DNA of 47,743 nt from a virus, in the IMG/VR virus record IMGVR_UViG_3300045996_002455, positions 1 to 47,743 of that record, one strand, 5' to 3'. The translations under genes were made by a program, and so were the position numbers. Below the pieces are notes generated by a model. The model was not told the origin of the DNA. It ran no database searches and worked only from the letters and a program-made list of their open reading frames with translations. Positions 7,854 to 44,536 of the stretch are shown here, in pieces (position 1 is the first letter of the stretch; each line of letters opens with the position of its first letter).

Positions 7854-7940
7854 TCCCGCACTAGACCGCTAAGGAGGCGGGCTCGGCTGTAAACCGGGTG
7901 TGCTTGCACCAACCAGGCTCGATACCTGGGTGCGGGACCA
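7854..7940 (+). tRNA. tRNA-Tyr (GTA anticodon)
   Basis: The acceptor stem TCCCGCA (7854-7860) pairs perfectly with TGCGGGA (7931-7937), followed by an encoded CCA. The anticodon arm is CTCGG-CTGTAAA-CCGGG, giving anticodon GTA. A long variable arm (GTGC-TT-GCAC) fits the class II bacterial tRNA-Tyr. The T arm is CCAGG-CTCGATA-CCTGG. Oddities: C rather than T at the first T-loop position, and a D stem (CCGC/GCGG) set 5 nt rather than 2 nt from the acceptor stem. It may offset a tyrosine-codon difference from the host or replace a cleaved tRNA. Confidence 0.82.
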
Positions 7941-9832: not shown

Positions 9833-10167
9833 TGCCGCTGGTGGACCAGCAGGTGGGCAGCAAGGCGCTCGAGCCGGGCACTGTGCTCGACGCCCTCAAT
9901 CGCGAGGTGGTGCCCGTGGTGCGACGCCTGCGCGCGCTGGTGAACGCGCAGCTGACCTCGGCAGCGGTGACCATCGGCGACGGCCTGGCCACGGTGTTCG
10001 CTGTCGAGAACCCGTTCGGCACGCGCGACGTGGTGGTGGCCGTCTACGACACCGGGACCTACCTGGACGTGCCGGCGACGGTCGAGCGCACGACGGCGGA
10101 CCTGCTGACCATCACGTTCGGCGTGGCCCCTGCGGCGGACGCTGTCCGGGTGCTCATCCGCCCATGA
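9832..10167 (+). CDS. Beta-rich virion-associated protein, 111 aa
   Basis: GTG 9832 overlaps the upstream TAG. After an N-terminal helix (EVVPVVRRLRALVNAQLTSA) comes a run of strands typical of small phage structural domains: TIGDGLATVFAVENPFGTRD, VVVAVYDTGTYLDVPATV and a DLLTITFGVAPAADAVRVLI end. The stop overlaps the terminase ATG. Confidence 0.55.
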   Translation: MPLVDQQVGSKALEPGTVLDALNREVVPVVRRLRALVNAQLTSAAVTIGDGLATVFAVENPFGTRDVVVAVYDTGTYLDVPATVERTTADLLTITFGVAPAADAVRVLIRP

Positions 10168-12689
10168 CCGAGGCGCTGTACCAGCCGTCGGTGTGGCAGC
10201 AGGAGTTCCACGCGCTCCGTGTGCACGAGGCGCTGGGCGCCGGCTCCGCGGGCGTCGGCAAGTCGCTCTGTCTGACCATGGACCCCATGGAGCAGGTCAT
10301 CGTCGAGCACCAGCGGTGCGCTGACCGTGCGCACCCGTTCCACCAGCGCTGGGGGCACTCGACAGGCTGGGCGCTCCACCTGCGCCGCGAGCTGGGCGAG
10401 CTCGAGCAGACCATCGCGCGCAGCCAGATTCTCTACCCCGGTGTCGACCCCAAGGCGCACTGGAACAGCACCAAGAACCTGTGGACGTTTTCGAGCGGCT
10501 TCAAAGTGCAATTCGGGCACTGCAACGGCGCGGAGGACCATGCCAAGTACCTCTCGAACGCGTACTGCCTAGCGGAGGGCCAGCGCATCGTGATGGCGGA
10601 CGGGTCGCTGCGCGCCATCGAGGACGTGGCAGCCGGCGAGCTGGTGCTGACGCTCGAGGGGCCGAAGCGCGTGCTCGCTACCTGGGACTCTGGCGTTCAG
10701 CACTGCTCCGCCTTGGACGTCCGCCACCCGACAACCGGCGGTCTGCTTGGAACGCAGCTACAGCCGACCACGCATCCGGTTCTTGTGACTTCCAGCGACG
10801 TACCGCCTCTCTCAGAGTCGCCGGGCACACGCCGTAGCGAGGGGCCAGCTCCTTCGCATGCATGGTACTGGCAAGACTACGAATCTCTTCTCGATGGGGC
10901 TCGAGTGAGCCGGGCGAAACGCGTTTCGACAATAGATGCGGAAAGTTGTTTCGTAGGGTCTGATGGTGCACGTCGAGCAGTTTCGCAGCTTCCAGCGTTG
11001 ACCGTCCGGCTAGTGCTTCACGAACAGTCTGTTCGTCGAGCCGCTCTTCGCCGTGCCACAGGATGCGATGCCGACCGAGAATGCTCGCAATCGTGTTGCG
11101 GCTCATGCCTTCCAGGCGGGCCGCGTCCAGAATCGTCAGGCTCGTGTTCTGGGCGTAAGCTCGCAGGCGTTCGACGAGGGCCCGGTCGTTCACCGGACAC
11201 GACCGCTTGTGATGCAGCAGGTGCTCCCGCTGCGACGGGAACAGCCATAGGTTCGACGGGTCGTTGTTCGACGGGTCGTTGTCCTCGTGATGCACGACCT
11301 CCAGCCGGGACAGGAAGCGGCCCAAGACAGCCTCGGCGACCAGGCGGTGCTGGAGCACGTAGCCGTGCCGGTTTGCGCCTGGGTGCTCTGGGGAATGCTC
11401 CATCACGTAGCCGGGCGACTTCGGAAACGAGCTACCCACACTTCTACTCGGAAGAGGACCGACCTCTGACAGAGGGCGTCTGTATTGCGACTGGACTGAT
11501 GCGCTATGCGGGGCTGCGTCGGACATTTGACCTCACCGTGGAAGATGCCAACCACTATATTGGTGAGTTCGGCATGGTGTCAAGCCAGACCCACATCGCC
11601 TTCGACGAGCTGACCACCTTCAGCAAGGCGCAGTACGACGGTGTCACCTCCCGCCTGCGCAGCGCTGACCCGGTCCTTCGCCAGCTTCTCAAGGTCCGGA
11701 GCATGTCCAACCCGGGCGTCTCACCGGGCGCTGACCCGCACTGGGTCCGCAAGATGTTCGTGGACCCGCACCCGGAAGGCAGGAAGCTGCTCGCGCGCAC
11801 CATCAAGCGCACGGACGGCACGACGTTCACGCGCACGCGCATCTACCTGCCCGGCAGGCTGACAGACAACCCCAACAAGCAGTTCGCAGCGGACTACGAG
11901 GAGACGCTCAGCGCGCTCCCCGTGCACATCCGCAAGGCTTACCGCGACGGCGACTGGTACTTCCGGCCCGGCAGCTTCTTCGGCGAGGACTGGGACAAGA
12001 CCCTGCACGTCGTCAAGCCGTTCAAGATTCCGAGCGACTGGCCTGTCTTCCGCGCGATGGACTGGGGTTTCAAGAGCCCCGGCAACGTCGGCTGGTACGC
12101 GTTCGACCCTGACGGCGACCTGTACAAAATCTGCGAGCTGAAGTTCCAGGGGCAGACCGACGAGCAGGTGGCCGAACAAATCAAGCACGAGGAGGAGCGT
12201 CTCGGCCTGTGGGACAAGGTCGGCAAGTGCTCGCGCATCACCGGTCCAGCGGACACGCAGCTCTGGGAGGAGCGCGGCGACTCGGGCAAGCGCAAGGTCG
12301 ACGTCTTCCGCGACAAGGGCATCATGTGGGTCCAGGCAGACAAGAAGAGCCGCGTGGCGAACGCTGGCCGTCTTATCAAGCGCCTGCGCGACCACAATAA
12401 CGGCACGCAGAATCCCGGCCTGATGGTCTTCTCGACCTGCAAGTACACCATCACGACGCTGCCGCAGGTGGACACCGACCCGGACGACCCGGAGCAGCCG
12501 CTCAAGGGCGGAGATGACCACGCTGTGGACGAAACCATGTATGCTGCGGCGTACGCCTCGCATGGCCCCTCACGCGTACATGTCAGGCGAGAGAAGGAAG
12601 ACCGGGACGACGACGACGATGACGACGCGTCGGACCGGGAAGCGCTACGCGGCCAGGGCCGCTACGGATACGGGTCACCGCACCTGTGA
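10164..12689 (+). CDS. Terminase large subunit interrupted by an intein
   Basis: 841-aa precursor of the ATPase-nuclease that packages DNA into the prohead. A Q-motif-like WQQEF leads to Walker A AGSAGVGKS (residues 26-34). The Walker B element (THIAFDELTTF) begins at residue 476, right after an intein of residues 135-475 (Cys135 to Gln475). Removing the intein leaves a normal 500-aa terminase with a continuous NAYTHIAFDEL junction. The C-terminal nuclease part follows (MDWGFKSPGNVGWYAFD near residue 632) and ends in an Asp-rich tail. Residues about 212-420 look like non-protein sequence because that DNA encodes an HNH nuclease on the other strand. ATG 10164 overlaps the previous stop (ATGA). 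Confidence 0.9.
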   Translation: MTEALYQPSVWQQEFHALRVHEALGAGSAGVGKSLCLTMDPMEQVIVEHQRCADRAHPFHQRWGHSTGWALHLRRELGELEQTIARSQILYPGVDPKAHWNSTKNLWTFSSGFKVQFGHCNGAEDHAKYLSNAYCLAEGQRIVMADGSLRAIEDVAAGELVLTLEGPKRVLATWDSGVQHCSALDVRHPTTGGLLGTQLQPTTHPVLVTSSDVPPLSESPGTRRSEGPAPSHAWYWQDYESLLDGARVSRAKRVSTIDAESCFVGSDGARRAVSQLPALTVRLVLHEQSVRRAALRRATGCDADRECSQSCCGSCLPGGPRPESSGSCSGRKLAGVRRGPGRSPDTTACDAAGAPAATGTAIGSTGRCSTGRCPRDARPPAGTGSGPRQPRRPGGAGARSRAGLRLGALGNAPSRSRATSETSYPHFYSEEDRPLTEGVCIATGLMRYAGLRRTFDLTVEDANHYIGEFGMVSSQTHIAFDELTTFSKAQYDGVTSRLRSADPVLRQLLKVRSMSNPGVSPGADPHWVRKMFVDPHPEGRKLLARTIKRTDGTTFTRTRIYLPGRLTDNPNKQFAADYEETLSALPVHIRKAYRDGDWYFRPGSFFGEDWDKTLHVVKPFKIPSDWPVFRAMDWGFKSPGNVGWYAFDPDGDLYKICELKFQGQTDEQVAEQIKHEEERLGLWDKVGKCSRITGPADTQLWEERGDSGKRKVDVFRDKGIMWVQADKKSRVANAGRLIKRLRDHNNGTQNPGLMVFSTCKYTITTLPQVDTDPDDPEQPLKGGDDHAVDETMYAAAYASHGPSRVHVRREKEDRDDDDDDDASDREALRGQGRYGYGSPHL
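10566..11588 (+). other. Intein (Hint protein-splicing element) in the terminase gene
   Basis: The intein spans 341 codons. N-terminal block A is CLAEGQRIVMADGSLRAIED with the nucleophile Cys at position 1; block B is TTHPVLVT with its conserved His (precursor residue 204). C-terminal block F is RRTFDLTVEDANHYIGEF, and block G is GMVSSQ followed by Thr as the first C-extein residue. The usual His-Asn pair at the C-end is replaced by Ser-Gln; terminal Gln is known in some active inteins. Between the two halves about 200 residues are of abnormal composition because of the antisense nuclease gene. Confidence 0.85.
10678..11526 (-). CDS. HNH homing endonuclease encoded antisense inside the intein
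   Basis: 282-aa protein on the opposite strand to the terminase. It has the HNH_3 layout: SPGYVMEHSPEHPGANRHGY (about 37-56), QHRLVAEAVLGRFL, then the catalytic VVHHEDNDPSNNDPSNLWLF (77-96; His79, His80, Asn92). Three tandem helix-turn-helix modules follow (TILDAARLEGMSRNTIASIL; STLEAAKLLDVHHQTLRNNF; HAKELAPRYGVCPATLREAV), well suited to reading a long homing site. ATG 11526 has a GAGG ribosome site; GTG 11439 is the alternative. The last 35-40 residues run antisense to Hint block A-B and look unstructured, so the original gene probably ended near 10790. Confidence 0.85.
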   Translation of the reverse strand: MSDAAPHSASVQSQYRRPLSEVGPLPSRSVGSSFPKSPGYVMEHSPEHPGANRHGYVLQHRLVAEAVLGRFLSRLEVVHHEDNDPSNNDPSNLWLFPSQREHLLHHKRSCPVNDRALVERLRAYAQNTSLTILDAARLEGMSRNTIASILGRHRILWHGEERLDEQTVREALAGRSTLEAAKLLDVHHQTLRNNFPHLLSKRVSPGSLEPHREEIRSLASTMHAKELAPRYGVCPATLREAVRRWKSQEPDAWSAVAAFQADRRLSGGGRPRRSSAERQSPR

Positions 12690-12695
12690 GGTCTC

Positions 12696-14876
12696 ATGGC
12701 ACTTTTGGATGAAGACGAAGAGCTGCTCGACCTGGAGGAATCCGGCGAGGTGGAAGTGGAAGACGCCGACGAGCCTGAAGAGGCCGAGGCCATCGACACG
12801 CTCGACGCGGAGGCCGAGCCCGAGCTCACGTACGACGAGGAGGCGCCGAATCTGGTGCCCGAGCTGCTCAAGCACCCCGATGGCATCGCCGCGCTGAAGG
12901 AGATGGCGGACTTCGCCGTCGACCAGTTCGACGCCGCCTGGGAGGCGCAGGAGGGCTACCGCGAGCGCCTGGCCAACGACCTGCGGCTGTTCACGGGCGA
13001 CCTCCCGGAGAAGCTCTACCCGTTCAAGAACTGCGCGAACGCGCACGTGCCCATCATGCTCGAGAACATCACCCGGCTGCAGATGCGCGCCGCGGGCGAG
13101 CTGTTCGGCGACTGGACGGCCGTCGCCACCGTGCTGCCGGTCGGACCGGACGACCGCGAGACAGCGGACATTCTGTCGCGCCACGCCAACTGGCAAATCA
13201 GCACCTCGCTGACCGACTTCAAGCGCCAGATGATGCGCGCGCTGCTCATGTTCTTCATGGCCGGCGACACCGTCTGCCACAGCTACTGGGACGCCGCCAA
13301 GAAGCGCAACAAGCACGAGGTGCTCACGCCGGACGACTTCGTCATCCCGCACGTGCACACGACCGTCGAGCCCGACTTCAGCGACTGCCCCTGGGTCGCC
13401 AAGGTGCTGTACCGCTACAAGCACGAGCTACAGCGCATGCGCGACGAGTGGCACGACGTCGATGCCGTCATCGAGCGCAAGACGCCCAGCTGGGACGACG
13501 AGCCGAACGCGCCCATCCGCGAGGAGGCCACGGCAGTCAGCGGCGTGGAGGCCAGCGACGAGCAGAAGGCGCCCTACAAGCTGCTGCACTGGGAAGGCTG
13601 GCTCGAGCTGCCAAACCAGGTCGACGAGCGCTTCTGCAAGCTCGTGGTGGACCACGAGACCCGCAACGTGCTCCAGCTGCAGATTCTCGAGGAGGAGGAT
13701 TGGCAGGACAAGCTGCGCCACCAGACGCAGGAGGAGGAGCTCGGGCGCTACCGCATGGAGCTTGAGGCCTTCAACAGCAGCATGCTCTCGCTGGCCTCCG
13801 GCGAGACGCTGGCCCCCATCGGCCCGGACGGCATGCCCTTCACGCCGCCCCCGCCGCCCATGGTGCCGAGCTGGCTCGAGAGCGCCGAGCAGGCCAGCGA
13901 CCCGCTGTTCGCGCCCGACCCGGTCCGCAAGGTGCCCATCCACATGTTCAGCCACGCGGTGTGCATCGAGCCGCCGAGCGGGCCGCTGGGCATCGGCTAC
14001 GGCCGCATCCAGGCCGACTACAACCGCGCCGGCAACACGGTGCTGAGCCAGTTCGTGGACGCCGCGACGCTGGCCAACGGCGGCAGCTACATCGTGGCGG
14101 ACGGCGTGTCGTTCGAGTCGCCGCTCGAGGTGGCGCCCGGTAAAGTGAACGTCGCGAAGGGCGTCACGCCGGGCGAGCTCGACAAGTCGCTGAAGGAAAT
14201 CAAGGCGCCACCGGCCAATCCGCAGCTCATCGAGGTGCTGAAGCTCGTGGAGGAGTGGGGTCAGTCGAGCATGCAGGCTCCCTCCGTGCTCAGCGGCGAA
14301 AGCGGCAAGTCGGGCGAGACGTTCCGCGGCATCAGCACGCGCGTCGAGCAGGCGACCAAGCAGCTCACGGTGGTCACCAGCCGCTTCGGCGACTTCGTGG
14401 CGCAGGTGCTCAAGAACAACGCGAAGCTCAACGCGAAGTTCATGGACGAAAACGAAATCGTGTTCGTCAACAACCATAAGCTCGGCACAGCGCAAGAGCT
14501 GCGCATCGGTCGCCAGCTGTACGAGCGCGACTACCGCGTGGTGCTGCGCAGCGACCTCCGCTTCGCCTCGCAGGCGCAGCGCATCACCGAGGCCGACCAG
14601 ACGCTCTCGATGGTCAGCTCGCTGCCGCAGCTGCAGAACAACATCCCCTTGATGTTCCAGGCGCTGAAGGAGGCACTCATCGCGCGCAGCCAGGAGCACC
14701 TTGTGCCATTCCTCGGGCCGGAGCCCGCGCCGCCGCCCACGACGCTTGGCATCCCGCCGCCCCCGCCCATGATGCCGCCTGGCATGCCGCTGCCTGGGCC
14801 GGACGGCCCGCCGCCCGAAATGATGGGGCCGCCGCCCGGCATGGAGCCGACCGCTGAGGAGCCGCCGCCCCAGTGA
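12696..14876 (+). CDS. Portal protein
   Basis: 726-aa protein placed directly after the terminase, as portals usually are. After an acidic N-terminal 60 residues, the family-typical start LANDLRLFTGDLPEKLYPFK and CANAHVPIMLENITRLQMRA leads into a long alpha/beta body with MFFMAGDTVCHSYWDA and a helical stem (SVLSGESGKSGETFRGISTR). The C-terminus is a Pro/Gly/Met-rich tail. Twelve copies would form the vertex channel for DNA. The length fits the podovirus (P22-like) portals. GAGG precedes ATG 12696. Confidence 0.85.
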   Translation: MALLDEDEELLDLEESGEVEVEDADEPEEAEAIDTLDAEAEPELTYDEEAPNLVPELLKHPDGIAALKEMADFAVDQFDAAWEAQEGYRERLANDLRLFTGDLPEKLYPFKNCANAHVPIMLENITRLQMRAAGELFGDWTAVATVLPVGPDDRETADILSRHANWQISTSLTDFKRQMMRALLMFFMAGDTVCHSYWDAAKKRNKHEVLTPDDFVIPHVHTTVEPDFSDCPWVAKVLYRYKHELQRMRDEWHDVDAVIERKTPSWDDEPNAPIREEATAVSGVEASDEQKAPYKLLHWEGWLELPNQVDERFCKLVVDHETRNVLQLQILEEEDWQDKLRHQTQEEELGRYRMELEAFNSSMLSLASGETLAPIGPDGMPFTPPPPPMVPSWLESAEQASDPLFAPDPVRKVPIHMFSHAVCIEPPSGPLGIGYGRIQADYNRAGNTVLSQFVDAATLANGGSYIVADGVSFESPLEVAPGKVNVAKGVTPGELDKSLKEIKAPPANPQLIEVLKLVEEWGQSSMQAPSVLSGESGKSGETFRGISTRVEQATKQLTVVTSRFGDFVAQVLKNNAKLNAKFMDENEIVFVNNHKLGTAQELRIGRQLYERDYRVVLRSDLRFASQAQRITEADQTLSMVSSLPQLQNNIPLMFQALKEALIARSQEHLVPFLGPEPAPPPTTLGIPPPPPMMPPGMPLPGPDGPPPEMMGPPPGMEPTAEEPPPQ

Positions 14877-21235: not shown

Positions 21236-22837
21236 ATGCACCTGATTGCACCTTTGATGGCAGGCGTAGCTGGAGCCGAGTCGGGCTCGGTCATCCTGTA
21301 TCGCCGCGGCACGACCACGCTGGCCACGTACTACACCTCGTTCGAGGGTGACGGTGGGTCGGCGCCTGCCAGCATCGCGCTGGACGCCAACGGCGGCGCC
21401 ACGGTCTACGTGAACGAGCTGGTGCGCGTCATCGTGCGCAACTCGGCCGGCGCGACCGTGCGTGACTTCGTGGACGGCGTGTCTGCGCCAGCGGTCGAGG
21501 TGCGCTCCACCAGCTTCAACGGCGCGGCCTACTCGGGCGGCGCCATCGCGCCCGGCAACCCCACCACGCTAAAAGCCATTCTGGACCTGTGGCTCACGAG
21601 CGCCGGCGCCCCTGATTTTGAGGTGCTGGTGAACGGCGTCGCGGCGCCAATCGAGACTGCGTTGGCGGCCGTGTCCGGGCTCGGTCTGTACGTGGTGACC
21701 AGTCCAACGTACGGCGCCGAGGGCGACGGCTCCACGGACGACACGGCGGCCATCCAAGCGGCCATCAACGCGGCCAACGCTGCCGGCGGCGGCGTGGTGT
21801 TCTTCCCGGCCGGCACGTACCGCTGCGCCAGCGCGCTGACCACCTACGCGACCGTCACCCTGCGCGGAGTGGACCGCGCGCGAAGCGTCATCCGCATCGA
21901 CCACAACGCGAGCGAGCACTTCGTAGGCGCTGCCCCAGCCGCGTGCGAGGATTTGGGCTTTACGCTCAACGTCGCGCGCACCTTCCCCGTCATCGACATT
22001 GTCGACGGTTCGACCACGCGCTTTAGCCGCTGCAGGTTCAATGCTGGCGTGGCCACGGGCAGCTTCCTGGGCGGCTCGACAACCTACTCGTACGTTACGG
22101 TCGAAAGCTGCGAGTTTATGGTCACAGCGGCCACTTTCACCGGCAACTTGGTGAAGGTTTTTGGGCAGCTCACGATGAGCGGGTGCGTGTTCCGCGTGTC
22201 TGGCACGTCGTACACCGGAACGGTGGTTGAGATGGTCGGCGACGGCTCCGTCACCGGATGCATGTTCAATCTGGTTACGGTGACGTCTGGCACGAGCACG
22301 GTCGTGCAGCCGAACAACAACGGCGCCATGTCCGGCTGTTCGTTCTCCTGCCAGTCGACTGCCTGCACGTACCTGGGAGTGTCGGCCGGAGCGTTCTCCG
22401 AAAGCGGCAACGTCTACAGTTTTCCGTCTGGCGCCGCCGTGGCGTTCGCCTCGTCTGCGTACGACACTCGGCAACTCGGCTCGCGCGCTCTCCGCACGAT
22501 TACGGTGGCCGATAGCGGCGCCACTCTCAATGCGACCATCGACGCGCTCTCGTTCGGAAACTATCGGCTGCAGATGATTGGAGTGCCGGCTGGCAACTTC
22601 AACCTGAACTTCACACACAGCCCTGTCGCCTCGTTGACCGTTCTGGCGATTCACAACGACACCGCGTCGAGCATCACGTTCGCCTGGGGCACCAACCACG
22701 CGATGAGTGGCACCACGTTTGCCGTCGCTGCGAACAGCTTCCGTTGCTTCTTGCTGCAGTACGTGGACTTCAACGGTAGCACGGTCTGCAAGTACCACAC
22801 GGTGTCTGACACCGCTGGCGCGCAGGAGAACGAGTAA
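21236..22837 (+). CDS. Pectate-lyase-type beta-helix spike protein
   Basis: 533 aa. An N-terminal beta domain (SGSVILYRRGTTTLATYYTS) is followed by the pectate_lyase_3 entry motif SPTYGAEGDGSTDDTAAIQA and VVFFPAGTYRCASALTTYAT (from about residue 155), then many beta-helix rungs and a C-terminal beta-sandwich. This architecture belongs to capsule-binding or depolymerising tail spikes. Lying between gp4- and gp10-like genes, it may be anchored in the neck. GGAGG precedes the ATG. Confidence 0.75.
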   Translation: MHLIAPLMAGVAGAESGSVILYRRGTTTLATYYTSFEGDGGSAPASIALDANGGATVYVNELVRVIVRNSAGATVRDFVDGVSAPAVEVRSTSFNGAAYSGGAIAPGNPTTLKAILDLWLTSAGAPDFEVLVNGVAAPIETALAAVSGLGLYVVTSPTYGAEGDGSTDDTAAIQAAINAANAAGGGVVFFPAGTYRCASALTTYATVTLRGVDRARSVIRIDHNASEHFVGAAPAACEDLGFTLNVARTFPVIDIVDGSTTRFSRCRFNAGVATGSFLGGSTTYSYVTVESCEFMVTAATFTGNLVKVFGQLTMSGCVFRVSGTSYTGTVVEMVGDGSVTGCMFNLVTVTSGTSTVVQPNNNGAMSGCSFSCQSTACTYLGVSAGAFSESGNVYSFPSGAAVAFASSAYDTRQLGSRALRTITVADSGATLNATIDALSFGNYRLQMIGVPAGNFNLNFTHSPVASLTVLAIHNDTASSITFAWGTNHAMSGTTFAVAANSFRCFLLQYVDFNGSTVCKYHTVSDTAGAQENE

Positions 22838-25819: not shown

Positions 25820-27388
25820 GTGGCGCGACGAGGCATCGACATCGGACAGTTCCTGAGCCCCTTTCGCGGGGACATCAGCGGAGCTGCGCTCGCGGCAGGC
25901 ACCTACAACGACATGGCGCGCGGCAACATCGCCCTGCGCGGCCAACTGTCGGATGAGGAGCAGGCGGCGCAGAGGCTAGCGGAACAGGGTCGCGAGTTCG
26001 ACATCCGGACGGGTGAGGACAGCCGGCAGTTCGACGATGCGCTCGCTGGCACCAACATGCGCCAGCAGCTCGAGCTCGACGCTGCGCGCCGCAAGTTCGA
26101 GGCGGAGCAGGCCATCAAGCAGCGCGACCTGGAAGCCGGCATCGTCGGCGAGTCCGTGGGCGCCTTCAGCAAGGGCGACATCAATGCGCTCGAGAGCGTT
26201 CGCGCGCGCGCCAACGTCGCCGCCCCCCAGCTGCAGTTCACCATGCCCGGCCAGGCGCTCGACCCCATCAACCCAGGCACGGGCCTGCCCAGCGAGGCCG
26301 CTGTCTTCGGCGACCCGATGAAGAGCCCCGGTCTGAGCATCCAGCGCGGCGCGGACCAGCTCTACAGCGGCGACCAGGCAAAGGTGCGCCAGCGCGAGCA
26401 GGACATCGCCGGTCGCATCCTCTCGCCGTTCCAGGGCGGGCCAGACGCGCAGTACATGATGCCCAGCATCACGGCGGGCGTCGGCGGAGCGGGCAGCGGC
26501 ATGACCGGCGCCGAGGCGGCCAACTTCGCACTCACGCACGGCGACAAGGCGGCGATGCGCGGCGTGATGCGCGAGAATGCGCGCATGGCATCTGTTCAGA
26601 AACAGGACGGCGCTGGCTTCCAGCAGGACACGACGCTGCACAAGCAAATCGAGGAAATCGCCGCGCGCACGGCTACCAAGTACAAGATTCCGGAAATCAT
26701 CAAGAAGCAGGGCGACCTCGGCTCGATGCTGGACGACATCCGCTCTGGCGTGCCGCTGCAGCAGAACCTTGCGAAGGCCTTCATGATGAAGGACGCCATC
26801 AAGGGTGCGGCCTCCGACAAGGACGCGTCGCGCTTCGAAAACGCCGCAGGTTTCTGGGAGCGCATGAACAACGAGTGGGGCAAGTACATGGACGGCGGCA
26901 AGCTGTCGCCTGGCTTCGCTGAGCAGCTCGGAGCGGCTGTTGAGCACATGCAGCTCGCCGCCGACATCAAGCGCGAACGCGCTGCGCAGGCCGCGCGCGA
27001 CCACGTCTACAACGCGACCATGCTGCCCTTCGCCAACGATGAGCAGGTGGTGCGCGGCGCCATGCAGGCCTACGGCGCCGTGTCGGGCGAGCCCTACACC
27101 GAGGAGGAGTTCGCGCAGGAGTTCGCGCGCTACCAGCAGGTCAAGCACGCTCGCTCGTCGCGCTCATTGGGCGGCGGCGGGCAGAGCTCGAGCACGCGTA
27201 TCCAGATGCGCGGCGACATCGTGCCGGGTCCTGATGCCCGCCCGCCCATTCCTGGGCCTGGCGACAACCTGGGCGTCGCTCCGGTCGACGGGAAGCCGCC
27301 GCGGCCCCCGCGCGCGTCTGCGCCGCCCCTTCCGCAGGGCGGAGGCGACTGGGACAGCGCCGCTGATGCACTCTTGGGAGGCCAGTAG
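25820..27388 (+). CDS. Internal virion/ejection protein, 522 aa
   Basis: GTG start; begins MARRGIDIGQFLSPFRGDIS. It has long charged helices (AARRKFEAEQAIKQRDLEAG) and a Pro-rich C-terminus. The place between the 337-aa and 803-aa proteins and the similar composition suggest a multi-protein ejection apparatus. No lytic transglycosylase motif was seen. Confidence 0.55.
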   Translation: MARRGIDIGQFLSPFRGDISGAALAAGTYNDMARGNIALRGQLSDEEQAAQRLAEQGREFDIRTGEDSRQFDDALAGTNMRQQLELDAARRKFEAEQAIKQRDLEAGIVGESVGAFSKGDINALESVRARANVAAPQLQFTMPGQALDPINPGTGLPSEAAVFGDPMKSPGLSIQRGADQLYSGDQAKVRQREQDIAGRILSPFQGGPDAQYMMPSITAGVGGAGSGMTGAEAANFALTHGDKAAMRGVMRENARMASVQKQDGAGFQQDTTLHKQIEEIAARTATKYKIPEIIKKQGDLGSMLDDIRSGVPLQQNLAKAFMMKDAIKGAASDKDASRFENAAGFWERMNNEWGKYMDGGKLSPGFAEQLGAAVEHMQLAADIKRERAAQAARDHVYNATMLPFANDEQVVRGAMQAYGAVSGEPYTEEEFAQEFARYQQVKHARSSRSLGGGGQSSSTRIQMRGDIVPGPDARPPIPGPGDNLGVAPVDGKPPRPPRASAPPLPQGGGDWDSAADALLGGQ

Positions 27389-29799
27389 TGCCTGGCCCCG
27401 CTGACGCCATCAAGCAGCTGCTCGCGCAACCCGGGGGCAGCCCCGAGAAGCGCGCCGCGCTCCAGGCGCGTCTGGCACAGCTCGAGTCGGCCGCGCCGGC
27501 CCCCGCCATGCAGCCGTCCGCGATGGGCGGGGCCATGGTTCCCGAACCCGTGCCGGTGCCCGACTTCAGCGACCAGCGCCGCGAGCGCCGCATCCTGGAG
27601 AACGCCAAGAAGCAGGCCGCGCAGCACGCGCTGCCGACCGCGTATCGCCCGAGCGGCCCCGACACGGCCGAGCCGCCCATCCTGTTCCACGACGGCGTGT
27701 CGGAGGACGACGAGGGCTGGAAGGCCGCGCTCGGCCGCGCGCAGGAGCGCAACGTTCCCGCGTACCGTATGAGCAAAGAGTTCCCCATCGAAGCCTCGCC
27801 CGCCGGCGTAGGCAACGCCGTTCTCCGAGGTGTCACCGGCTCGCTTGCCCCTGCGCTGCTTGCCGCCGACAACTCACTGACAGGAGGCCTCGGAACCAAG
27901 CTGCCCGTGTGGCTTGGGGAAAAGGCTGGGCTACTCCCGGGAGGTACTGCGGCTGAGCTAGGCGAGACCATCAAGGCCAACCCCGTCGAGTCCGCGATTG
28001 GCGGGATTGCTGGCAGTATCCCCGCGGGCGGCTTGGCTGGACGTGTTGGAGGTGGCGTCACCAGGGGTCTCGAGAAGCTCGCGCCGGGCGCGCAGGGCTT
28101 TCTGCCGTCGCTGCTGCGCATGAGCGCGGGCGGCGCGGCGAGCGCCGGAGCGCAGACGGCCGTGGAGAGCGGCGTGGACAAGTTTGTGGGCGGAGCACGC
28201 GACATCCTGGCGGACAGCATCCGCTCGGCCGCGTTCGGCGGCGTGCTCGGCCCCGTTTTTGGCGGCCTCGCCAAGCTTGGCAGGTCGCAGCAGGCAGCGG
28301 TGCGCGACACCGACACGCCGATGGGACGCGACCTGACGCTCGCGGAGCAGGGCGGCGCCAAGCCGCATTGGTGGAGCGCGCTCACGCCCTCGCCCGCGCA
28401 GCAGGCGGTCAAGCAGGAGGCGCAGTCGCTCGGCTTCACCACCGGCGACGTGCTGACCGAGCGAGCTGTGGACCCGCTGGGCAAGGCCGTGCAGGGCAAG
28501 CTGGCGGGCCTGCCGGCGAAGCCCACGGCAGCGGTCGGCCCGGACCTCGACGAGGCCGCTGTGCCCGCTGGGCGGGCGCTTGGCAAGGCGCTCGAGGGCT
28601 ACCGCGGCCGGACCTTGCAGCAGGTGGGCGACGAGAACAAGGAGCTGTATGCAAGTGCGCCACAGGTCAACCTGGAGCCGATGGCACGCCGCGCGTGGGA
28701 CGTCATTCGCAAGGCGACGTCCGCGGACGGCACCGCGCTGCCCGGCCAAAAGGTCACCGAAGCGGTGAACGCGCTGAAGGGCTCGGCGACGTTCAAGACG
28801 GTTGCCATCGACAGCGATGCCGCGCAGTCTGCCGACCCCGAGGACGTCATTCCCCTTTCGCTAGCCCGCAAGCTTGGTCTCCTGCGCGGCACCGATGCGC
28901 CGGAAGCGGCGGGGCCGGATGCTGCCAAGCGCGTGGTCATCATGAAGCCGCGCGTGGAGTCGTTCGAGAAGCTCGAGGCGGCCCGCCAGCAGCTCGACGA
29001 GCGCGCGGGCGCTGTCGGCGAATACGACCCGGCCCGCAAGACGGCTAAGGAGCTGGCTGGCGCAGCGCGCGAGGTGCGCGACCAGCTGCCCGGCGACGTG
29101 CAGGCCATCCGCGCTCGCCAGGCCGAGGCGCTGAACGGGCTCAAGAACGCGCTCGAGGCGGGCGGCGTGGGCCGCGACGGCGCCGTCGACATGGGCCAGT
29201 TCGGCACGCTCGACGCGCTCTACAAGTCGGCGCGGCGCTACGGCTCGCCCGGCAACGCGGTGGCCGACGCGGAGCTCAACCGCATCGCGAAGGCCGACCC
29301 GGCGCTGCGCGCGGCGCTCGACCGGGTGAAGGCTGCGCACGCGAAGCCGGCTGACGCGGTCGAGCCCGAAGTGCCACAGGACATCAAGAACGCGCTGTGG
29401 GCCACTGGGCAGCCCAAGGATGCGCGCGGCGTGAATCTGGGCGATGCCGAGACGCGCAACCGTCTGGGCGAGGCTGCGGCACGCTACAAGGGGCATGGCG
29501 AGGTCACGCGCAGCGAAGTGCTGGACGAGCTGGCCACGAACAACGCGGAGCTGCGCAAGGCGCTCGCAGATGCCGCCAGCGGCAACGCGGCGAACCGGCT
29601 GCGCGGCCAGGCCAGCATGCGCTTCGCTGTGACGCCCCAGGGCCAGGTGAAACCGTACGGCGCGAGCACCGGTGTGCGCCTGCGATTCGACCCCTTCATG
29701 GGCGCCCTGGGCAGCATGAACGCTCGCGCGCCTGGCGTCGCGGGAGGCACGGCCGCCGAGCTGGCGCGTCAGTACAAGCGAAGGACATACCCCCAATGA
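27388..29799 (+). CDS. Large internal virion/DNA-ejection protein, 803 aa
   Basis: GTG start overlapping the previous stop (TAGTG). Residues about 150-300 are rich in Gly and Ala with amphipathic or hydrophobic stretches (GNAVLRGVTGSLAPALLAAD; SAIGGIAGSIPAGGLAGRVG) that could insert in membranes. A helical C-terminal half follows (KELAGAAREVRDQLPGDVQA). This layout resembles the largest ejection protein of podoviruses (compare P22 gp16). Its role is inferred. Confidence 0.6.
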   Translation: MPGPADAIKQLLAQPGGSPEKRAALQARLAQLESAAPAPAMQPSAMGGAMVPEPVPVPDFSDQRRERRILENAKKQAAQHALPTAYRPSGPDTAEPPILFHDGVSEDDEGWKAALGRAQERNVPAYRMSKEFPIEASPAGVGNAVLRGVTGSLAPALLAADNSLTGGLGTKLPVWLGEKAGLLPGGTAAELGETIKANPVESAIGGIAGSIPAGGLAGRVGGGVTRGLEKLAPGAQGFLPSLLRMSAGGAASAGAQTAVESGVDKFVGGARDILADSIRSAAFGGVLGPVFGGLAKLGRSQQAAVRDTDTPMGRDLTLAEQGGAKPHWWSALTPSPAQQAVKQEAQSLGFTTGDVLTERAVDPLGKAVQGKLAGLPAKPTAAVGPDLDEAAVPAGRALGKALEGYRGRTLQQVGDENKELYASAPQVNLEPMARRAWDVIRKATSADGTALPGQKVTEAVNALKGSATFKTVAIDSDAAQSADPEDVIPLSLARKLGLLRGTDAPEAAGPDAAKRVVIMKPRVESFEKLEAARQQLDERAGAVGEYDPARKTAKELAGAAREVRDQLPGDVQAIRARQAEALNGLKNALEAGGVGRDGAVDMGQFGTLDALYKSARRYGSPGNAVADAELNRIAKADPALRAALDRVKAAHAKPADAVEPEVPQDIKNALWATGQPKDARGVNLGDAETRNRLGEAAARYKGHGEVTRSEVLDELATNNAELRKALADAASGNAANRLRGQASMRFAVTPQGQVKPYGASTGVRLRFDPFMGALGSMNARAPGVAGGTAAELARQYKRRTYPQ

Positions 29800-30158
29800 C
29801 CATCACGCGACTCAAGTACACCGGCAGCACGCCCGGTGCCGACGCCAACACCTATGTGCTGTTCAGCACCGTGGCCGCGGCTTGCCCTGGCAACTGGGGG
29901 CCGATGTGCGGCTTTCACACCTTCCACTACGACATCGACAACGACCAGGCCGGCACGCTGAACCTGTACAAGAGTAGCAACCGCGGCACGAGCTGGACGC
30001 AGATGTCCACGACGGCGGTCGCTATCCCCGCGGCCAACACCAGCAACAACGGCGTGCTGCTTATCGAGGGCCTGGCCGACTTCAAGGTGGAGTGGGTGAA
30101 CGGCGGCAGCGCGCAGACCGTCTGGGCTGTCGACATGGACGTCTCCACCTTCCCCTGA
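29796..30158 (+). CDS. Small beta-rich virion protein, 120 aa
   Basis: The ATG overlaps the previous stop (ATGA). Beta strands such as TYVLFSTVAAACPGNWGPMC and KVEWVNGGSAQTVWAVDMDV make a compact sandwich. It lies just before the main tail spike and may be its adaptor or a receptor-binding head. Confidence 0.55.
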   Translation: MTITRLKYTGSTPGADANTYVLFSTVAAACPGNWGPMCGFHTFHYDIDNDQAGTLNLYKSSNRGTSWTQMSTTAVAIPAANTSNNGVLLIEGLADFKVEWVNGGSAQTVWAVDMDVSTFP

Positions 30159-30173
30159 TTCCGAGGTCTAACC

Positions 30174-33047
30174 ATGGCGTTTGTGTGGCCGAGTCCCGGC
30201 GAGCGACCGAAGAAGGCTGATGCGGTCACGTTCTACTCGCAAGCAGGGGAGAACGTCACGGTGGACTCGCACGTCGCTGCGCTCCTGCGCGCGCGGCAGT
30301 TGGTCGGCTACAACCCGTACGCCACCAGCCGCTACGTGTTCATGCAGACCGGCGTCACCACGACGACCGCGGCGTTGTCCACGGCCATCGGTCCCGTCCA
30401 CGGCGCGCTCGCGCAGACGTCGGGCGAGGTGGCTATCGGCGACGGGGATTCCTCGCCGTGGGTCTGGATGGCGGATTCGGAAACGGCTGTCGATGGGACC
30501 GACGTCCTGGGCTTCCTGGACGTGGGCCGCTGGCATCGTCAGGGCAGCACGGGCGCCACCAGCACAGGCTACATCGTGCCCGGCCATGGCGTTGCAGGCA
30601 CCGGCTTGGTGGACGACAGCCCGGCCATCGCCGCGCTCGAGTCCGTGCTGTCAGCTCTTGGCGGCGGCACCATCACGTTCACGCCCGGCACCTACCTGCT
30701 GAGCACGAACCTGACCTCGCTCGTCACGACCACCTACGACGTGCAGAACCGGGCGCTGTTCGAGGTGGCATCGGGCGTCGTGCTCGACATCCGCGGCAGT
30801 CTGATTGCGCCGTCAGGCGTGCAAATCTTCGACGTCAGCGCGAGCGTCATCCCGACGCCGCCAGTCGCGAGCACGGCGGCTTGGGCACGCGTGCTGCTCG
30901 CCGGGAAGTCCGGCGTGTTGGCATCGTGGTTCGGCGCGCTCAACGACGACTACGTCACCGACAACCTTATCCCGCTGACCATTTGGCTGAACAGCTGCGT
31001 CGGCACCAGTCTGGCCACGTCCGGCTGCGAGCTCGTGCTCGACAGTCCACGCACCGGCTTCTTCGGGACGAGCGGGCTCATCATCGCGCGCAGCGTGAAC
31101 GGCGGCGTCATTGGCAACCTGACCATCCGCGGGACGCGCGGCTTTGGCTCGCGCATCAAGCACATGGTCGACGCAACCAGCATCACGAACCCTGAGGGCC
31201 TGGGCGTTCTGACGATCAAGTTCGAGTCGGGCAGCAACGCCAACATCCCTTACAACCTCGTCGTCGAGGACATCTCTGTAGAGGGCAACTCGGGCGCGGA
31301 CCGGTCGAAGGCGATCTACTTCGGCTTCTTCAACAACGCCTACTTCGATCGCGTGCAGATCAAGGACACCGGGGGAGAGGGCATCTGCTCACCAGGCGCA
31401 TCGACGCAGGTCAAGCAGCACATCAACAACTGTCGCGCGATCAACATCGGGCGTGAGGGGCTCGTTGCGGCCTTCAACCTGAATGCGCAGAGCGTTCACA
31501 TCACGGGATGCCTGACCGAGTATTGCGGCAAGGACATCGAGCACACCGGGCGCGACTTTTTCATCACGGGCAACGTCTTCAAGTACCCCGACTCGATCTC
31601 GGTCATGGCGTGCAGCACCGTGTTCTCGAACGGTCAGGGCGTCATCGCCGACAACATCATCATCGGTGCGCCGACCGGTCTCGCTATCGCGGCGCAGGAG
31701 GTGACGCTCGGAAACGTCCTCGTCCATCACAACACTCTCATCGCGTGCGGCGATGGCATCAACGTCGGCGCGTCCATCTACAGCAAGGGCGCGGTCACCG
31801 TCGAGAACAACCTGCTGCTGAGTGGAACGGCGAGCGCCACGGCGATCCTGCTCAACCACGGCAAGACCATCTGCCGCAACAACACGATCCAGCGCGTCCA
31901 TGGCGCCACCGGATTCTGCACGGCAGCAGCGCCCACAGCGACGCTCAACGGCGGAGCTACCACGGGCACGTGGGCTGACAAGCAGTACACGGGCACCGTG
32001 TCCAGCACGACCGGCCTCTCGGTTGGTAGCTACATCTCTTTCGCAACCGATACGTCGGTAATCCCGAACTACACCGACAACCACATTTACCGCATCACGG
32101 CTATCAACGGCCTGAGCGTCACGCTGCATAAGCCGAAGTATCGGGCTTGTACAGGCCTGGGGGTCTTTACTCCTCACGTCATCACCATGATCGGCGCGGC
32201 GGCCACTTCCGGAAACGGGCTCTACACCGGCGACGTGTTCGCTGGTTACACGATGACCGTGGTCGGACTCTCCGGGACGTACACCGTGCTCGACACCGAG
32301 CAGGAGTTTGTGGGCGCATCGAACCTCGCGGTCCGCGTGGACGCAACGCCGAACACGACCGTCAGCAACGCGCTGGTCACCTACTCGTCGGCGCCTTGGG
32401 CTTATTGCGTCAGGTCGACCTTTGACGAGGGGTGCCTGATCGAGGGCAACCACACGATCGGCCTCGCATGGACCACGGCTTGGTGCGCGCAGACCGGCTG
32501 GCTCAACACCACGACCGAGAACAACACGTTCGACCTCGACGGCCAGGACCCCACGGGGATGACCGTTCTCCAGGTGCGCGACCTGAGCAACAACGAGGCA
32601 GGTCGCCTGCGGCACGGCACAGGCGCAGGCGACTACATCCGCTGCCAAGAGCCGTGGGGGTACTCGGGCACGAAGCGCAGTTTCGCGACGGCAGACGGCT
32701 GGCCAACGTCTCTCACGTGGAAGATTGGCGACCGCATCGACTACGCGCTGCCAACGGCAGGCAGTTTCATCGGTCTCGTGTGCACCGGCGAGGGCACGGC
32801 TGGCACGCTTGTAGGAAAGACCGGCACGCTGCCAACGGGAACAGACGACCTGACCATGTCTCCTAACGCGAACGCCATCGTGCCTGGCATGTACCTGGCC
32901 ATCGCCACGGTCACCGACCCCAAGCGAGTCGACTCGATTGCTGGTGCGGTGCTGGACCTCGACACCAACAACGCCGACCCGACAGCGACGGCGCAGGCGG
33001 TCACGTTCTCGGCGCCGACGACCACGACGTGGGGACCAACCACATGA
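30174..33047 (+). CDS. Main tail spike (beta-helix, capsule-recognising)
   Basis: 957 aa. The N-terminal domain (FVWPSPGERPKKADAVTFYS, WVWMADSETAVDGTDVLGFL) is of the virion-attachment type. A pectate-lyase-like beta-helix starts near residue 140 (PGHGVAGTGLVDDSPAIAAL, then ITFTPGTYLLSTNL) with rungs through about 560 (VEDISVEGNSGADRSKAIYF; GNVLVHHNTLIACGDGINVG). A C-terminal beta-sandwich carries the trimerisation region. Codons about 347-762 hold eleven GATC sites, while the rest of the genome has essentially none, so this segment looks imported. GAGG precedes the ATG. Confidence 0.78.
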   Translation: MAFVWPSPGERPKKADAVTFYSQAGENVTVDSHVAALLRARQLVGYNPYATSRYVFMQTGVTTTTAALSTAIGPVHGALAQTSGEVAIGDGDSSPWVWMADSETAVDGTDVLGFLDVGRWHRQGSTGATSTGYIVPGHGVAGTGLVDDSPAIAALESVLSALGGGTITFTPGTYLLSTNLTSLVTTTYDVQNRALFEVASGVVLDIRGSLIAPSGVQIFDVSASVIPTPPVASTAAWARVLLAGKSGVLASWFGALNDDYVTDNLIPLTIWLNSCVGTSLATSGCELVLDSPRTGFFGTSGLIIARSVNGGVIGNLTIRGTRGFGSRIKHMVDATSITNPEGLGVLTIKFESGSNANIPYNLVVEDISVEGNSGADRSKAIYFGFFNNAYFDRVQIKDTGGEGICSPGASTQVKQHINNCRAINIGREGLVAAFNLNAQSVHITGCLTEYCGKDIEHTGRDFFITGNVFKYPDSISVMACSTVFSNGQGVIADNIIIGAPTGLAIAAQEVTLGNVLVHHNTLIACGDGINVGASIYSKGAVTVENNLLLSGTASATAILLNHGKTICRNNTIQRVHGATGFCTAAAPTATLNGGATTGTWADKQYTGTVSSTTGLSVGSYISFATDTSVIPNYTDNHIYRITAINGLSVTLHKPKYRACTGLGVFTPHVITMIGAAATSGNGLYTGDVFAGYTMTVVGLSGTYTVLDTEQEFVGASNLAVRVDATPNTTVSNALVTYSSAPWAYCVRSTFDEGCLIEGNHTIGLAWTTAWCAQTGWLNTTTENNTFDLDGQDPTGMTVLQVRDLSNNEAGRLRHGTGAGDYIRCQEPWGYSGTKRSFATADGWPTSLTWKIGDRIDYALPTAGSFIGLVCTGEGTAGTLVGKTGTLPTGTDDLTMSPNANAIVPGMYLAIATVTDPKRVDSIAGAVLDLDTNNADPTATAQAVTFSAPTTTTWGPTT
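31214..32459. other. GATC-containing island inside the spike gene
   Basis: GATC occurs at 31214, 31313, 31347, 31358, 31439, 31595, 31844, 31886, 32189, 32438 and 32456. By eye only one other GATC exists in the window (43960). The island covers the beta-helix body but not the attachment or C-terminal parts of the spike. Confidence 0.75.
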
Positions 33048-33817
33048 CCTCTCACCGCTACACGCGCCGCACGGACGGCACATGGAACAGGCGCACGTCA
33101 GGCGACGCCGAGGCCGCGTCCATGAGCTTCTACGAGGCTATCACGGGCAGCGACTACGCGACCAAGTCTGCGCCTGGCGGGGCGGCTGGCACGGCCACCG
33201 ACTTCTTCGCCGCGCAGGTGTTGCGCTGGCCGTCGCTCGCGGTCGGTTCGGCCACCAGGTCGTCGCACACCAGGCGCTCGGGAAGCTCGGGCTACGTAGG
33301 CCGCACCACGGGCGCGCTGGCTGCGCTGGGTGGATTCGCGTTCGACGGCTCGGCGGGCGCCGTGTCCCTTCCTGACTACACGATACAGCCGGCCGATGAG
33401 GCCGTCGTCATGATGCAGGTGATGGTGTTCACGGGCGGCCAGTTCAGGCACTACGTCAACCGCTCCAAGGTTGGCGCCGATGCTGCCATGGTCGGCCACA
33501 CGCCAGGCGCGAGCGTGCCGGTCGGCTTCGGCATCCGCGGTGACGTGCTGAGCGAGCCGGCGACCAACACGCAGCTGCACGGAATCGCACAGGGCAGCCT
33601 GTCGCTCGGCGCTGACGCGGCGGCTGTGCTCGCGACGGTGCAGGCGTGGTTCGACGCGGTGAAGGCTGCAGGGCATCTCGTGGCCTGCCCTGGCGTCGAC
33701 ACGCCGTTCGTGAGGTACGTCGACGACACCGGCGCGTTCGCTGGCACGGGCGACGCGCTGACCATCACCGGCTCCCCCGACCTCGTCACTATCGATTCCC
33801 CAGACTGGGGATGGTAA
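33044..33817 (+). CDS. Spike-associated structural protein, 257 aa
   Basis: ATG overlaps the spike stop (ATGA). The protein is beta-rich and Gly/Ala-rich (SSGYVGRTTGALAALGGFAF, EAVVMMQVMVFTGGQFRHYV). It may be a lectin-like or assembly partner of the spike. No family recognised. Confidence 0.55.
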   Translation: MTSHRYTRRTDGTWNRRTSGDAEAASMSFYEAITGSDYATKSAPGGAAGTATDFFAAQVLRWPSLAVGSATRSSHTRRSGSSGYVGRTTGALAALGGFAFDGSAGAVSLPDYTIQPADEAVVMMQVMVFTGGQFRHYVNRSKVGADAAMVGHTPGASVPVGFGIRGDVLSEPATNTQLHGIAQGSLSLGADAAAVLATVQAWFDAVKAAGHLVACPGVDTPFVRYVDDTGAFAGTGDALTITGSPDLVTIDSPDWGW

Positions 33818-38387: not shown

Positions 38388-40106
38388 CTACTTTCTCGCC
38401 AGAATGGCGTGAAGACGTTCTGCGTTAGGCTTCCATTTGGAAGCCGATATGACGTAGTCGCAGGCTTCGCTCGCGCGCTGGAAGGTCAGGCTATCAGGCA
38501 CGGGCGCGAATCTGGAGAGGACCGCGAGCTGCTTGATGGTGGCGAGCCCAGCATCCTGTCTTTTGTTGAGCTTGTCGATGAGCTTGCTCGCGGTGCGCTT
38601 GTCCATCTTCATCACGTCAGCTTCCTTCAGCCCGCGGCGAATCAGGAAGCCAGCCTGGCCCTCGGTCACCGGCAGCGAGCCGAAGCGCGTGCTGATGGCC
38701 TGTTCGCGCTCGAGGCCGAGGCACTTGAACGGGTCGAAGCTGGTGACCTGCGCCTTCACCTTGGCCTTCGCGGCCTGCATGCGGGCAGCCAGCGCCTTCA
38801 GCTCGTTACGCGCCTCCTTGAGGGCCTTGTGCACGTCGCGCGCCTGGCCGTCGCCTTCGGCGAACTCGTCGCGCATCTTGGCCTTCGCGGCCTTGACCTC
38901 TTCCTCGGTGTAGTCGCCGCCCAGCACGTCGACCGGGCCGACCAGCGAGTGTTTGCCTGCGTTGCCCACGAAGTCCAACACGCGCATGCGCGGCTTCTTG
39001 CTGGCAGCGATGGCAGCGCGGCGCTCGGCCGCCTTCTCCTCGCCCTCCAGGTGGTCGACCACGCCCGGCAGCACGCGGGTGCCACGGCCGCACATCTGAG
39101 CGTAGAGGCTGCGCGACTTGGTGGGCCGCGCGATGGCAACGACGCTGGTGGCTGGGGCGTCGAAGCCCTCGGTGGCCACTGCGCAGTTGAAGAGGTACTG
39201 GTACTGGCGGGCCTTGAAGCCCTTCACCAGCATGCGCCGCTCGTCGGAGTCGGTGCCGCCGTCTATGCTGATGGCGCTGCCCGGGGCGATGGCGTTCATG
39301 CGCTCGGCCATGGCATGGGCGCTGCGCACGCCGGGCGTGAAGATAATCACCTGCTCCGTGCCGCACAGCTCGTACGTCTTCTGCACCACCGACTCGGTGG
39401 CCTTCAGCATCTCCTCGTCCAGCTCGCCCTGCGCCAGGTCGCCGCTGACCGTGGACACGTTGCTCAGGTCGACCTCCTCGACGAACACCTGCTCGCCGTG
39501 CACGGGCACCAAGTAGCCAGCCTCGATGCCGTCGGTGATGTCCATGACGAACGCCACGTCGTCGAACACGGCGCCCATGGCCTTCTCGTCAGCGCGGTCA
39601 GGCGTGGCCGTGACGCCCAGCACCTTGGCACTGGTGAAGTAGTCGAGGATTTTGATGTAGCTCGGCGCGGGCGTGCGGTGGGCCTCGTCGATGATGATGA
39701 GCGAGAAGTGGTCGGGACTAAACTTCTCGAGGCGGCGCGACATGGTCTGCACGCTGGTGACGACGATGCGCTCGTTGCCGCAGCGGTACTCGGCTTTCTC
39801 CGTGCCGACGTACTCGCCCGTGGTCTCCTCTAGTGTGGCGCGCGCCTGGCTGATGAGCTCCTCGCGGTGCGCCACCATCAACACGCGGCCCTGCCACGCT
39901 GCCGCGATGGTCGCGAAGAACACGGTCTTGCCGAGGCCCGTGGCCATCACCACCAGCTCGCTGCGGTTCTCGCGCCAGCCAGACTGGCAGGCTGCGTCGG
40001 CGAGGAGCTGGTAGTAGCGGGGGGTGCGGCCACGCGGCTTTGCGGGCGGCGTGAGCATGGGAGCTGGTGCCGCTGCCGGCGCGTCGAAGAAGTCCAGCTG
40101 GCTCAT
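38388..40106 (-). CDS. DEAD/DEAH-type superfamily 2 helicase
   Basis: 572 aa. Walker A VMATGLGKT (about 53-61), VMVAHREELISQAR-type motif Ia, DEAH box IIIDEAHRT (about 138), motif III LGVTATPDR and the C-terminal helicase half (VVAIARPTKSRSLYAQMCGR with the arginine finger). It resembles phage RadD/ResIII-like enzymes that unwind or remodel replication forks. The C-terminus adds a helical domain. Probably the main replicative or recombinational motor, as no polymerase was seen. ATGA overlap with the gene upstream. Confidence 0.85.
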   Translation of the reverse strand: MSQLDFFDAPAAAPAPMLTPPAKPRGRTPRYYQLLADAACQSGWRENRSELVVMATGLGKTVFFATIAAAWQGRVLMVAHREELISQARATLEETTGEYVGTEKAEYRCGNERIVVTSVQTMSRRLEKFSPDHFSLIIIDEAHRTPAPSYIKILDYFTSAKVLGVTATPDRADEKAMGAVFDDVAFVMDITDGIEAGYLVPVHGEQVFVEEVDLSNVSTVSGDLAQGELDEEMLKATESVVQKTYELCGTEQVIIFTPGVRSAHAMAERMNAIAPGSAISIDGGTDSDERRMLVKGFKARQYQYLFNCAVATEGFDAPATSVVAIARPTKSRSLYAQMCGRGTRVLPGVVDHLEGEEKAAERRAAIAASKKPRMRVLDFVGNAGKHSLVGPVDVLGGDYTEEEVKAAKAKMRDEFAEGDGQARDVHKALKEARNELKALAARMQAAKAKVKAQVTSFDPFKCLGLEREQAISTRFGSLPVTEGQAGFLIRRGLKEADVMKMDKRTASKLIDKLNKRQDAGLATIKQLAVLSRFAPVPDSLTFQRASEACDYVISASKWKPNAERLHAILARK

Positions 40107-43607: not shown

Positions 43608-43800
43608 TTTCATCCTCCATCGCGCGCGCCGCGTTGATTGCGTCGACGCACTTTTGCCTGGCGAATCGGTCGAAGCCAGGCGCTAACGTAAGCGCCTGTT
43701 CGCAGGCCTCGTGAAGCTCCCAGTCACGCGCCGAACGCGCCTCCGCGCTTAGCGCTTCGATTTGACTGTCTGCGATGGTCGCGACGGTCAGTTTATCCAT
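43600..43800 (-). CDS. Small hypothetical protein, 66 aa
   Basis: MDKLTVATIADSQIEALSAE then a helical segment rich in Ala and Arg. Start and stop sit in ATGGATAA overlaps with both neighbours. Looks like a small helical regulator or adaptor; no family. Confidence 0.55.
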   Translation of the reverse strand: MDKLTVATIADSQIEALSAEARSARDWELHEACEQALTLAPGFDRFARQKCVDAINAARAMEDENG

Positions 43801-44536
43801 TGCTGGCCCCCTGCTTCGCGTCGATGGCGCGCTGGAGTAGCTTCGTGATGAGCGTCTGCGCTTCGTTGTGCGTGCGCGTGGCGCTGAAGGTGATGCCGGT
43901 CAGCTCCTTGGCCAGCGCATCGGCGCCGAGTCTGTTCTCGACGCCAAGGGACTTCATAAGATCCCTGATTTTGGCCCCCTGCTCGGCCGTGGCCGGTAGC
44001 GCGCCTTGGTCGACAGGAGGCGCGGAAGCGGCGACGCTCGTTTGCGCGGGCTGTTGCTGCGCGGGCTGTTGGCGAGGCGCCTCGGGAGCGCGGCGCGGTT
44101 GGCTTCCCATGGCAGGCGTACGCGCGCTAGCTGCGTTCCCGTCGTCGTCCTCGGGAGCAACGCCGCAGATAGCGGCCAAGCTGCCTCTTCGCGCGTACGT
44201 CACGGCTGAGAGAATCTTCTGCGGGTCTGCGTTCCAGACTGGCATATCCAGCTCGCAAGACATCCATTCGCCAGACTTGTGCATGAGCACGGTTTCAACC
44301 GTGACGATTGTCTCGATGTCCTCGCCAACGGTCGCGCCCATGCGAGTCGACGGGAACTGAGGGTAAGAGAGGCCGTGCTTGGCGAACGGGGCACGGATAG
44401 CGTCTCGCACGCTGGCTAGGTCCGCATACTTCGATTTGAAGTGCGGGTTATTGGCGTCCTTTGTGGCGTTGTCGGCCTCGCCCATTGCAAGGGTGAGAGC
44501 TTCGGAAAGGTTGGCGATGGATTCAGAGCGTTTCAT
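43793..44536 (-). CDS. ERF-family single-strand annealing protein
   Basis: 247 aa. The N-terminal ERF domain is clear: SESIANLSEALTLAMGEADN, then NPHFKSKYADLASVRDAIRA and KHGLSYPQFPSTR (residues 1-65), with YARRGSLAAICGV later. A Gln/Pro-rich linker (about 140-165) separates a C-terminal helical DNA-binding-type domain. Like P22 Erf it would anneal complementary single strands, circularise the genome and mediate recombination together with the exonuclease and HNH genes downstream. ATG overlaps the upstream stop (ATGA). Confidence 0.85.
   Translation of the reverse strand: MKRSESIANLSEALTLAMGEADNATKDANNPHFKSKYADLASVRDAIRAPFAKHGLSYPQFPSTRMGATVGEDIETIVTVETVLMHKSGEWMSCELDMPVWNADPQKILSAVTYARRGSLAAICGVAPEDDDGNAASARTPAMGSQPRRAPEAPRQQPAQQQPAQTSVAASAPPVDQGALPATAEQGAKIRDLMKSLGVENRLGADALAKELTGITFSATRTHNEAQTLITKLLQRAIDAKQGASNG

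Follow-up and report, generated by a model that had tools for sequence, protein, structure and literature searches.

The tail spikes and tail fibres of phages undergo module exchange. Rusinov et al. 2018 (PMC6286503) describe the near-elimination of a single palindrome (ratio <0.1), which they report mainly where phages are non-temperate and sites are of the orthodox Type II; in the same study, the 46 phages from hosts with the Type IIM enzyme all have a GATC ratio <1. The main text of that article contains 0 occurrences of the words 'recombination' and 'horizontal', and islands within a genome are therefore not treated there under those words. Candidates for an activity that recognises GATC are enzymes of the DpnI, DpnII and DpnIII types (PMC12707154), Mrr when the site is methylated, GATC phosphorothioation systems (PMC7230728) and mismatch repair (PMC5014478). 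The haloviruses of the HF1 group and the SH1/PH1 haloviruses are reported to be isolates without GATC (PMC7230728, PMC3622292), and HF1 is set apart from HF2 by a recombined late region carrying host-range genes (PMC7230728). In mycobacteriophages, tetranucleotide outliers found in sliding windows mark transfer (PMC4841201).

The phage genome analysed here resembles these systems in part. Indeed (i) one palindrome is nearly eliminated, as in the phages of PMC6286503, but one tract escapes the avoidance, (ii) the haloviruses are described as GATC-free genome-wide, exchanged region included, whereas the putatively exchanged region is unpurged here, (iii) a transferred segment would be traced by its odd 4-mer usage, as in the mycobacteriophages, where PMC4841201 reports GATC as over-used genome-wide in one subcluster and is not known to describe an island of an otherwise purged site, and (iv) a variable receptor-binding gene occupies a conserved position, as in the module exchange of spikes and fibres (HF1/HF2, PMC7230728), but the exchange is read here from restriction-site content and not from alignment with a donor. 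Site avoidance and import are each known kinds of phenomenon, and their combination would be unusual. Among the titles and abstract openings of a limited open-access literature, none was found that describes a receptor-binding gene with an unpurged island.

The window, that is the whole stretch of DNA that was analysed, is an entire virus record of 47,743 bases (66% G+C) from a tailed phage. An earlier note on this DNA had placed GATC at 43960 and at eleven positions from 31214 to 32456, and nowhere else. A scripted count agrees with it exactly, finding the tetranucleotide at 31214, 31313, 31347, 31358, 31439, 31595, 31844, 31886, 32189, 32438, 32456 and 43960. The note's estimate that well over one hundred sites would be expected is also borne out, with 12 sites seen against 139.9 expected from a maximal-order Markov model or 148 from base composition. 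The ratio of 12/139.9, or 0.09, lies in the range of site elimination (observed/expected <0.1 for one site with an expected count >15). GATC has the lowest z (-10.8) among all 256 4-mers, the runner-up being CTCA (z -4.2), and the next most depleted palindrome is CTAG (27 seen, 55 expected). AATT is also low (1 seen, 13.4 expected); the deficits of AATT and CTAG are far milder than that of GATC. When many GATC were looked for outside the island, 1 site was found against 128.8 expected. The features of the spike locus are as follows.

29796 to 30158, plus strand: small conserved gene directly upstream of the spike gene (120 aa), used as locus marker in relatives
30174 to 33047, plus strand: gene of a putative tail spike or receptor-binding protein (957 aa)
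30573 to 31213, plus strand: likely interval of the left breakpoint (15 opportunities, no site, likelihood 0.01)
31214 to 32459, plus strand: GATC-unpurged island (11 GATC, spike residues 347-762)
32460 to 33479, plus strand: likely interval of the right breakpoint (15 opportunities, no site, likelihood 0.01)

The depletion has a clear signature in the codons. In called genes of at least 240 bases, and taking as outside everything beyond 31200-32460, isoleucine codons preceded by G are ATC in 0/36 cases outside the island, against 338/366 for those preceded by other bases (p 4e-34). Within the island, all of the G-preceded isoleucine codons are ATC (10/10; p 2e-10 versus outside). With both strands counted, GAT is followed by C in 41% of its occurrences within the island, in 0.2% of those elsewhere in the window and in 36-48% of those in three unpurged relatives. 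Shuffling of synonymous codons in the called genes gives an expectation of 151 GATC; a constraint of protein composition, considered as a cause of the low count, was ruled out by this shuffling. The shuffling and the isoleucine test together place the depletion at synonymous positions, where neither protein sequence nor codon usage can account for it. Beyond the island, GATC is thus avoided almost completely, and the avoidance operates on silent positions.

The island itself holds 11 GATC against 11.8 expected without avoidance; it is therefore normal and not rich in GATC, and it is everything else that has been purged. Ten of its eleven sites are ordinary xxG-ATC isoleucine codons, with no longer motif in common. 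The clustering log-likelihood ratio of the segment 31214-32456 is 31.2, whereas the highest value among 200 shuffles was 13.9, and this cluster is the strongest among 14 records. The second, in G024 (11.2), is a weak cluster of three sites in 34 bases (p 0.015, uncorrected for the 14 records), and that of G006 is also weak (p 0.04, likewise uncorrected). No island of comparable strength was found in the 13 other records, related avoiders included.

In the product of the gene that carries the island, residues 133-200 match the PHROG 2234 tail spike family (E 7e-7), residues 127-215 give weak matches to solved surface-protein chains, and no Pfam domain was found; a single-sequence structure prediction had a mean pLDDT of 31.7, too low for use. 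The spike could bind polysaccharide, as suggested by the weak matches to tail-spike and surface proteins near residues 127-215, which lie outside the island. Homologues of the 120-aa gene are present in 6 related records, where they are followed by differing open reading frames, and only in G019 does the frame behind it weakly match the spike (residues 59-202, E 0.001). A conserved genome position with a variable protein, as required for module exchange, is thus found at the spike locus, and the site density, the clustering and the differing genes behind the 120-aa gene uphold the proposal that an unpurged segment lies in the spike at a variable locus. The close homologues of residues 347-762 in otherwise different phages, which the note had proposed to look for, did not emerge from 50,697 phage records or from viral contigs. 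Similarly, neither of these collections gave a near relative of the spike, and there was no near relative of 20000-44000 in phage records, no relative of the protein upstream (27388-29799) among viral contigs, and no match to the island in 30 related records, many of which are fragments that possibly do not reach the locus.

Elsewhere in the window, the following genes are relevant here.

7855 to 7940, left arm: tRNA-Tyr gene (anticodon gta)
10164 to 12689, plus strand: intein-bearing terminase
10678 to 11526, minus strand: open reading frame of an HNH endonuclease (HNH_3 and helix-turn-helix matches)
12696 to 14876, plus strand: SU10 portal gene, used for finding relatives and for the tree
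21236 to 22837, plus strand: second spike-like gene, pectate-lyase-like (PF12708, E 1.9e-15)
38388 to 40106: ResIII-type helicase (coordinates assigned by size)
43793 to 44485, minus strand: Erf-like single-strand annealing recombinase (Pfam ERF, E 1.5e-15; PHROG Erf-like)

The second spike-like gene contains 0 GATC against 6.5 expected and has matches in 21/28 of the record or locus sequences searched, that is in most related records. The HNH frame is antisense within the intein-bearing terminase, where the sense frame stays open, and the G026 terminase holds the same antisense frame (58% identity over 249 residues). Among 22 other terminase-matching sequences, 20 match both flanks of the intein; 19/20 have nothing over the intein, G011 being ambiguous.

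A portal profile search of viral contigs yielded 33 loci. In a portal tree of 35 rows, 11 rows have a GATC observed/expected ratio <0.4, namely the window (0.09), L009 (0.37), L010 (0.28), L011 (0.28), L018 (0.35), L019 (0.14), L020 (0.32), L021 (0.16), L029 (0.05), L033 (0.17) and L034 (0.06), and the remaining 24 range from 0.45 to 1.24. The fewest state changes on this tree, whose deep forks are weakly supported and several of whose ratios come from short fragments, number 5; with at least five changes, GATC avoidance has been gained or lost repeatedly. The well-supported sisters L020 (0.32) and L035 (0.91) differ in state, and no purging is seen in L005 (1.02) and L006 (1.00), which at 53% identity stand nearest to the window. 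The loss of GATC is lineage-specific among these relatives.

Comparison site by site in aligned DNA also points to a pressure directed at GATC. The window keeps 0/165 aligned GATC of eight unpurged relatives (131 distinct window positions), including 0/29 for G005, 0/5 for G008, 0/15 for G026 and 0/27 for G019, while other palindromes are kept at 30-45% in these four pairs; the pair with G008 is by itself not significant (p 0.07). Likewise, G015 (the record of L020) keeps 1/63 GATC of G026 (the record of L035), against 31% of other palindromes (p 8e-9). In a control pair of unpurged phages, G010 and G008, GATC is kept at 16/39, near the 45% of other palindromes, and the avoider pairs G023/G025, G014/G016 and G024/G014 contain too few sites for a verdict. 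Together with the isoleucine codons, this loss against relatives substantiates the claim of a pressure specifically against GATC, and the avoidance is well supported. G015 and G026 are sister phages of about 68% DNA identity, with 62/63 aligned GATC of one absent in the other, and offer a natural pair to time site loss.

These observations are probably best explained by a GATC-specific nuclease of the host, which would have purged the genome, followed by the recent replacement of part of the spike from an unpurged phage. The lineage would long have been exposed to a pressure against GATC, whose most likely source is GATC-recognising host nucleases, either of the orthodox Type II kind (DpnII/Sau3AI) or reading the modification state of GATC, and would have lost essentially all sites, largely through silent changes. 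A recent recombination would then have swapped a stretch of the spike, which covers at least 31214-32459 and might span everything between about 30.6 kb and the gene end. The donor would be a phage of similar codon usage outside GATC selection, and the imported sites would still be unpurged. The Erf-like recombinase is a possible means of such module exchange. The sole GATC beyond the island (43960 to 43963) falls inside the gene of this recombinase.

The main rival to an import is a chimeric assembly, in which the contig would join a spike segment of another phage into the genome. Mixtures of strains at spike loci can confuse assemblers, the record is of the IMG/VR kind and classed 'linear', and the joins have no confirmation from any close relative. 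However, a chimera would require two in-frame joins, the frame of 957 codons running unbroken over the two edges, and the codon usage is native on either side. Within the island, synonymous codon usage and GC3 match the rest of the genome, with codon log-likelihoods of -0.76 and -0.95 for the two halves (mean of 200-codon windows -0.84, SD 0.22). A donor, if any, thus had similar codon habits, and the foreign origin of the segment has no independent sign in its composition. The edges were estimated by counting outward the opportunities lacking a site until the likelihood at the unpurged rate was 0.01. They are loose, since the sites give only a minimum, and the tract can exceed 31214-32459: the beginning of the spike gene seems to be purged, and 32460-33047 fits either class. 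The unpurged tract therefore covers at least residues 347-762 and possibly extends from about residue 134 to the gene end. The note had located it in the middle of the spike; the island does lie within the spike gene, but 'distal two thirds' would be the better description if the tract reaches the gene end. On balance, a chimera is considered unlikely.

Another explanation keeps the recent import and attributes the avoidance to a process other than restriction, such as the cutting of unmethylated GATC by MutH in Dam hosts. The combination of Dam and MutH is mainly a gammaproteobacterial arrangement, and T7 is among the phages in which the absence of GATC has been tied to mismatch repair. For phiX174, the absence of GATC is also discussed alongside mismatch repair (PMC5014478). 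MutH cutting and restriction are inseparable on the present data, and the former is assigned a low probability. As regards the host, a scan of genome contigs with the portal of the window gave no match, and with the portal profile it gave one contig, in a Polyangiaceae MAG, a result too weak for naming a host. This contig has a GATC observed/expected ratio of 0.76 and does not count as an avoider. The MAG also contains two MethyltransfD12 matches, which are uninformative given that the phage contig within it does not avoid GATC strongly. PADLOC matches to restriction enzymes and PbeA were set aside, as the matching protein, unnamed by the scan, is taken as the ResIII-type helicase.

Mutational depletion is a third, very improbable, explanation. 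If 5-methylcytosine in GATC were deaminated, GATT and AATC would result, and these two make up 21 of the 99 one-step replacements observed (AATC 14, GATT 7) and 12 in the G015/G026 sister pair. However, CATC (31) and GACC (22) head the list of replacements, followed beyond AATC by GGTC (11) and, after GATT, by GATG (6), GAGC (5) and GCTC (3), and CATC alone accounts for 15 in the sister pair. Since the spectrum is mostly not that of deamination, selection explains the loss better. Deamination also needs methylated phage DNA, and the 25 Pfam families recorded across 57 phage proteins include no DNA methyltransferase, an enzyme that would mask the sites; of the PHROG families, the best 25 of 61 were considered. 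Finally, it is hardly credible that the spike GATC are kept by selection, for example as cut sites stimulating recombination to diversify the spike: the near confinement of GATC to this gene and the presence of an Erf-like recombinase speak for it, but the density is neutral, the isoleucine codons are ordinary and other avoiders are without such an island.

If the spike segment was imported into a genome purged by a host nuclease, the event should be young. Outside the island, the called genes offer 561 synonymous one-step routes to GATC and contain 1 GATC, so that about 0.03 substitutions per site is the upper limit (97.5% bound) for the age of any genome-wide lapse of the pressure. The import would thus be recent whether selection is on, because 11 sites remain, or off, because the rest of the genome is still clean. 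Since 11 new sites should bring renewed restriction, the import would have to be very young unless the pressure has lapsed. A recent import is plausible. More tentatively, a host shift could have been caught in the act, the segment coming from a phage of enzyme-free hosts and the recipient multiplying in such hosts since; this is possible rather than likely. If it is true and the pressure has lapsed, the shift would date back no more than about 3% of synonymous change.

A purged restriction site could serve both as a tracer and as a clock, with unpurged tracts revealing recent imports in purged genomes, and this tracer works even where a segment has native codon usage and lacks an identified donor, as in this phage. 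If such islands gather in the receptor-binding genes of other avoiders, changes of host range would become datable, and the same islands would make it possible to examine whether phages give up resistance to restriction in exchange for new receptors.
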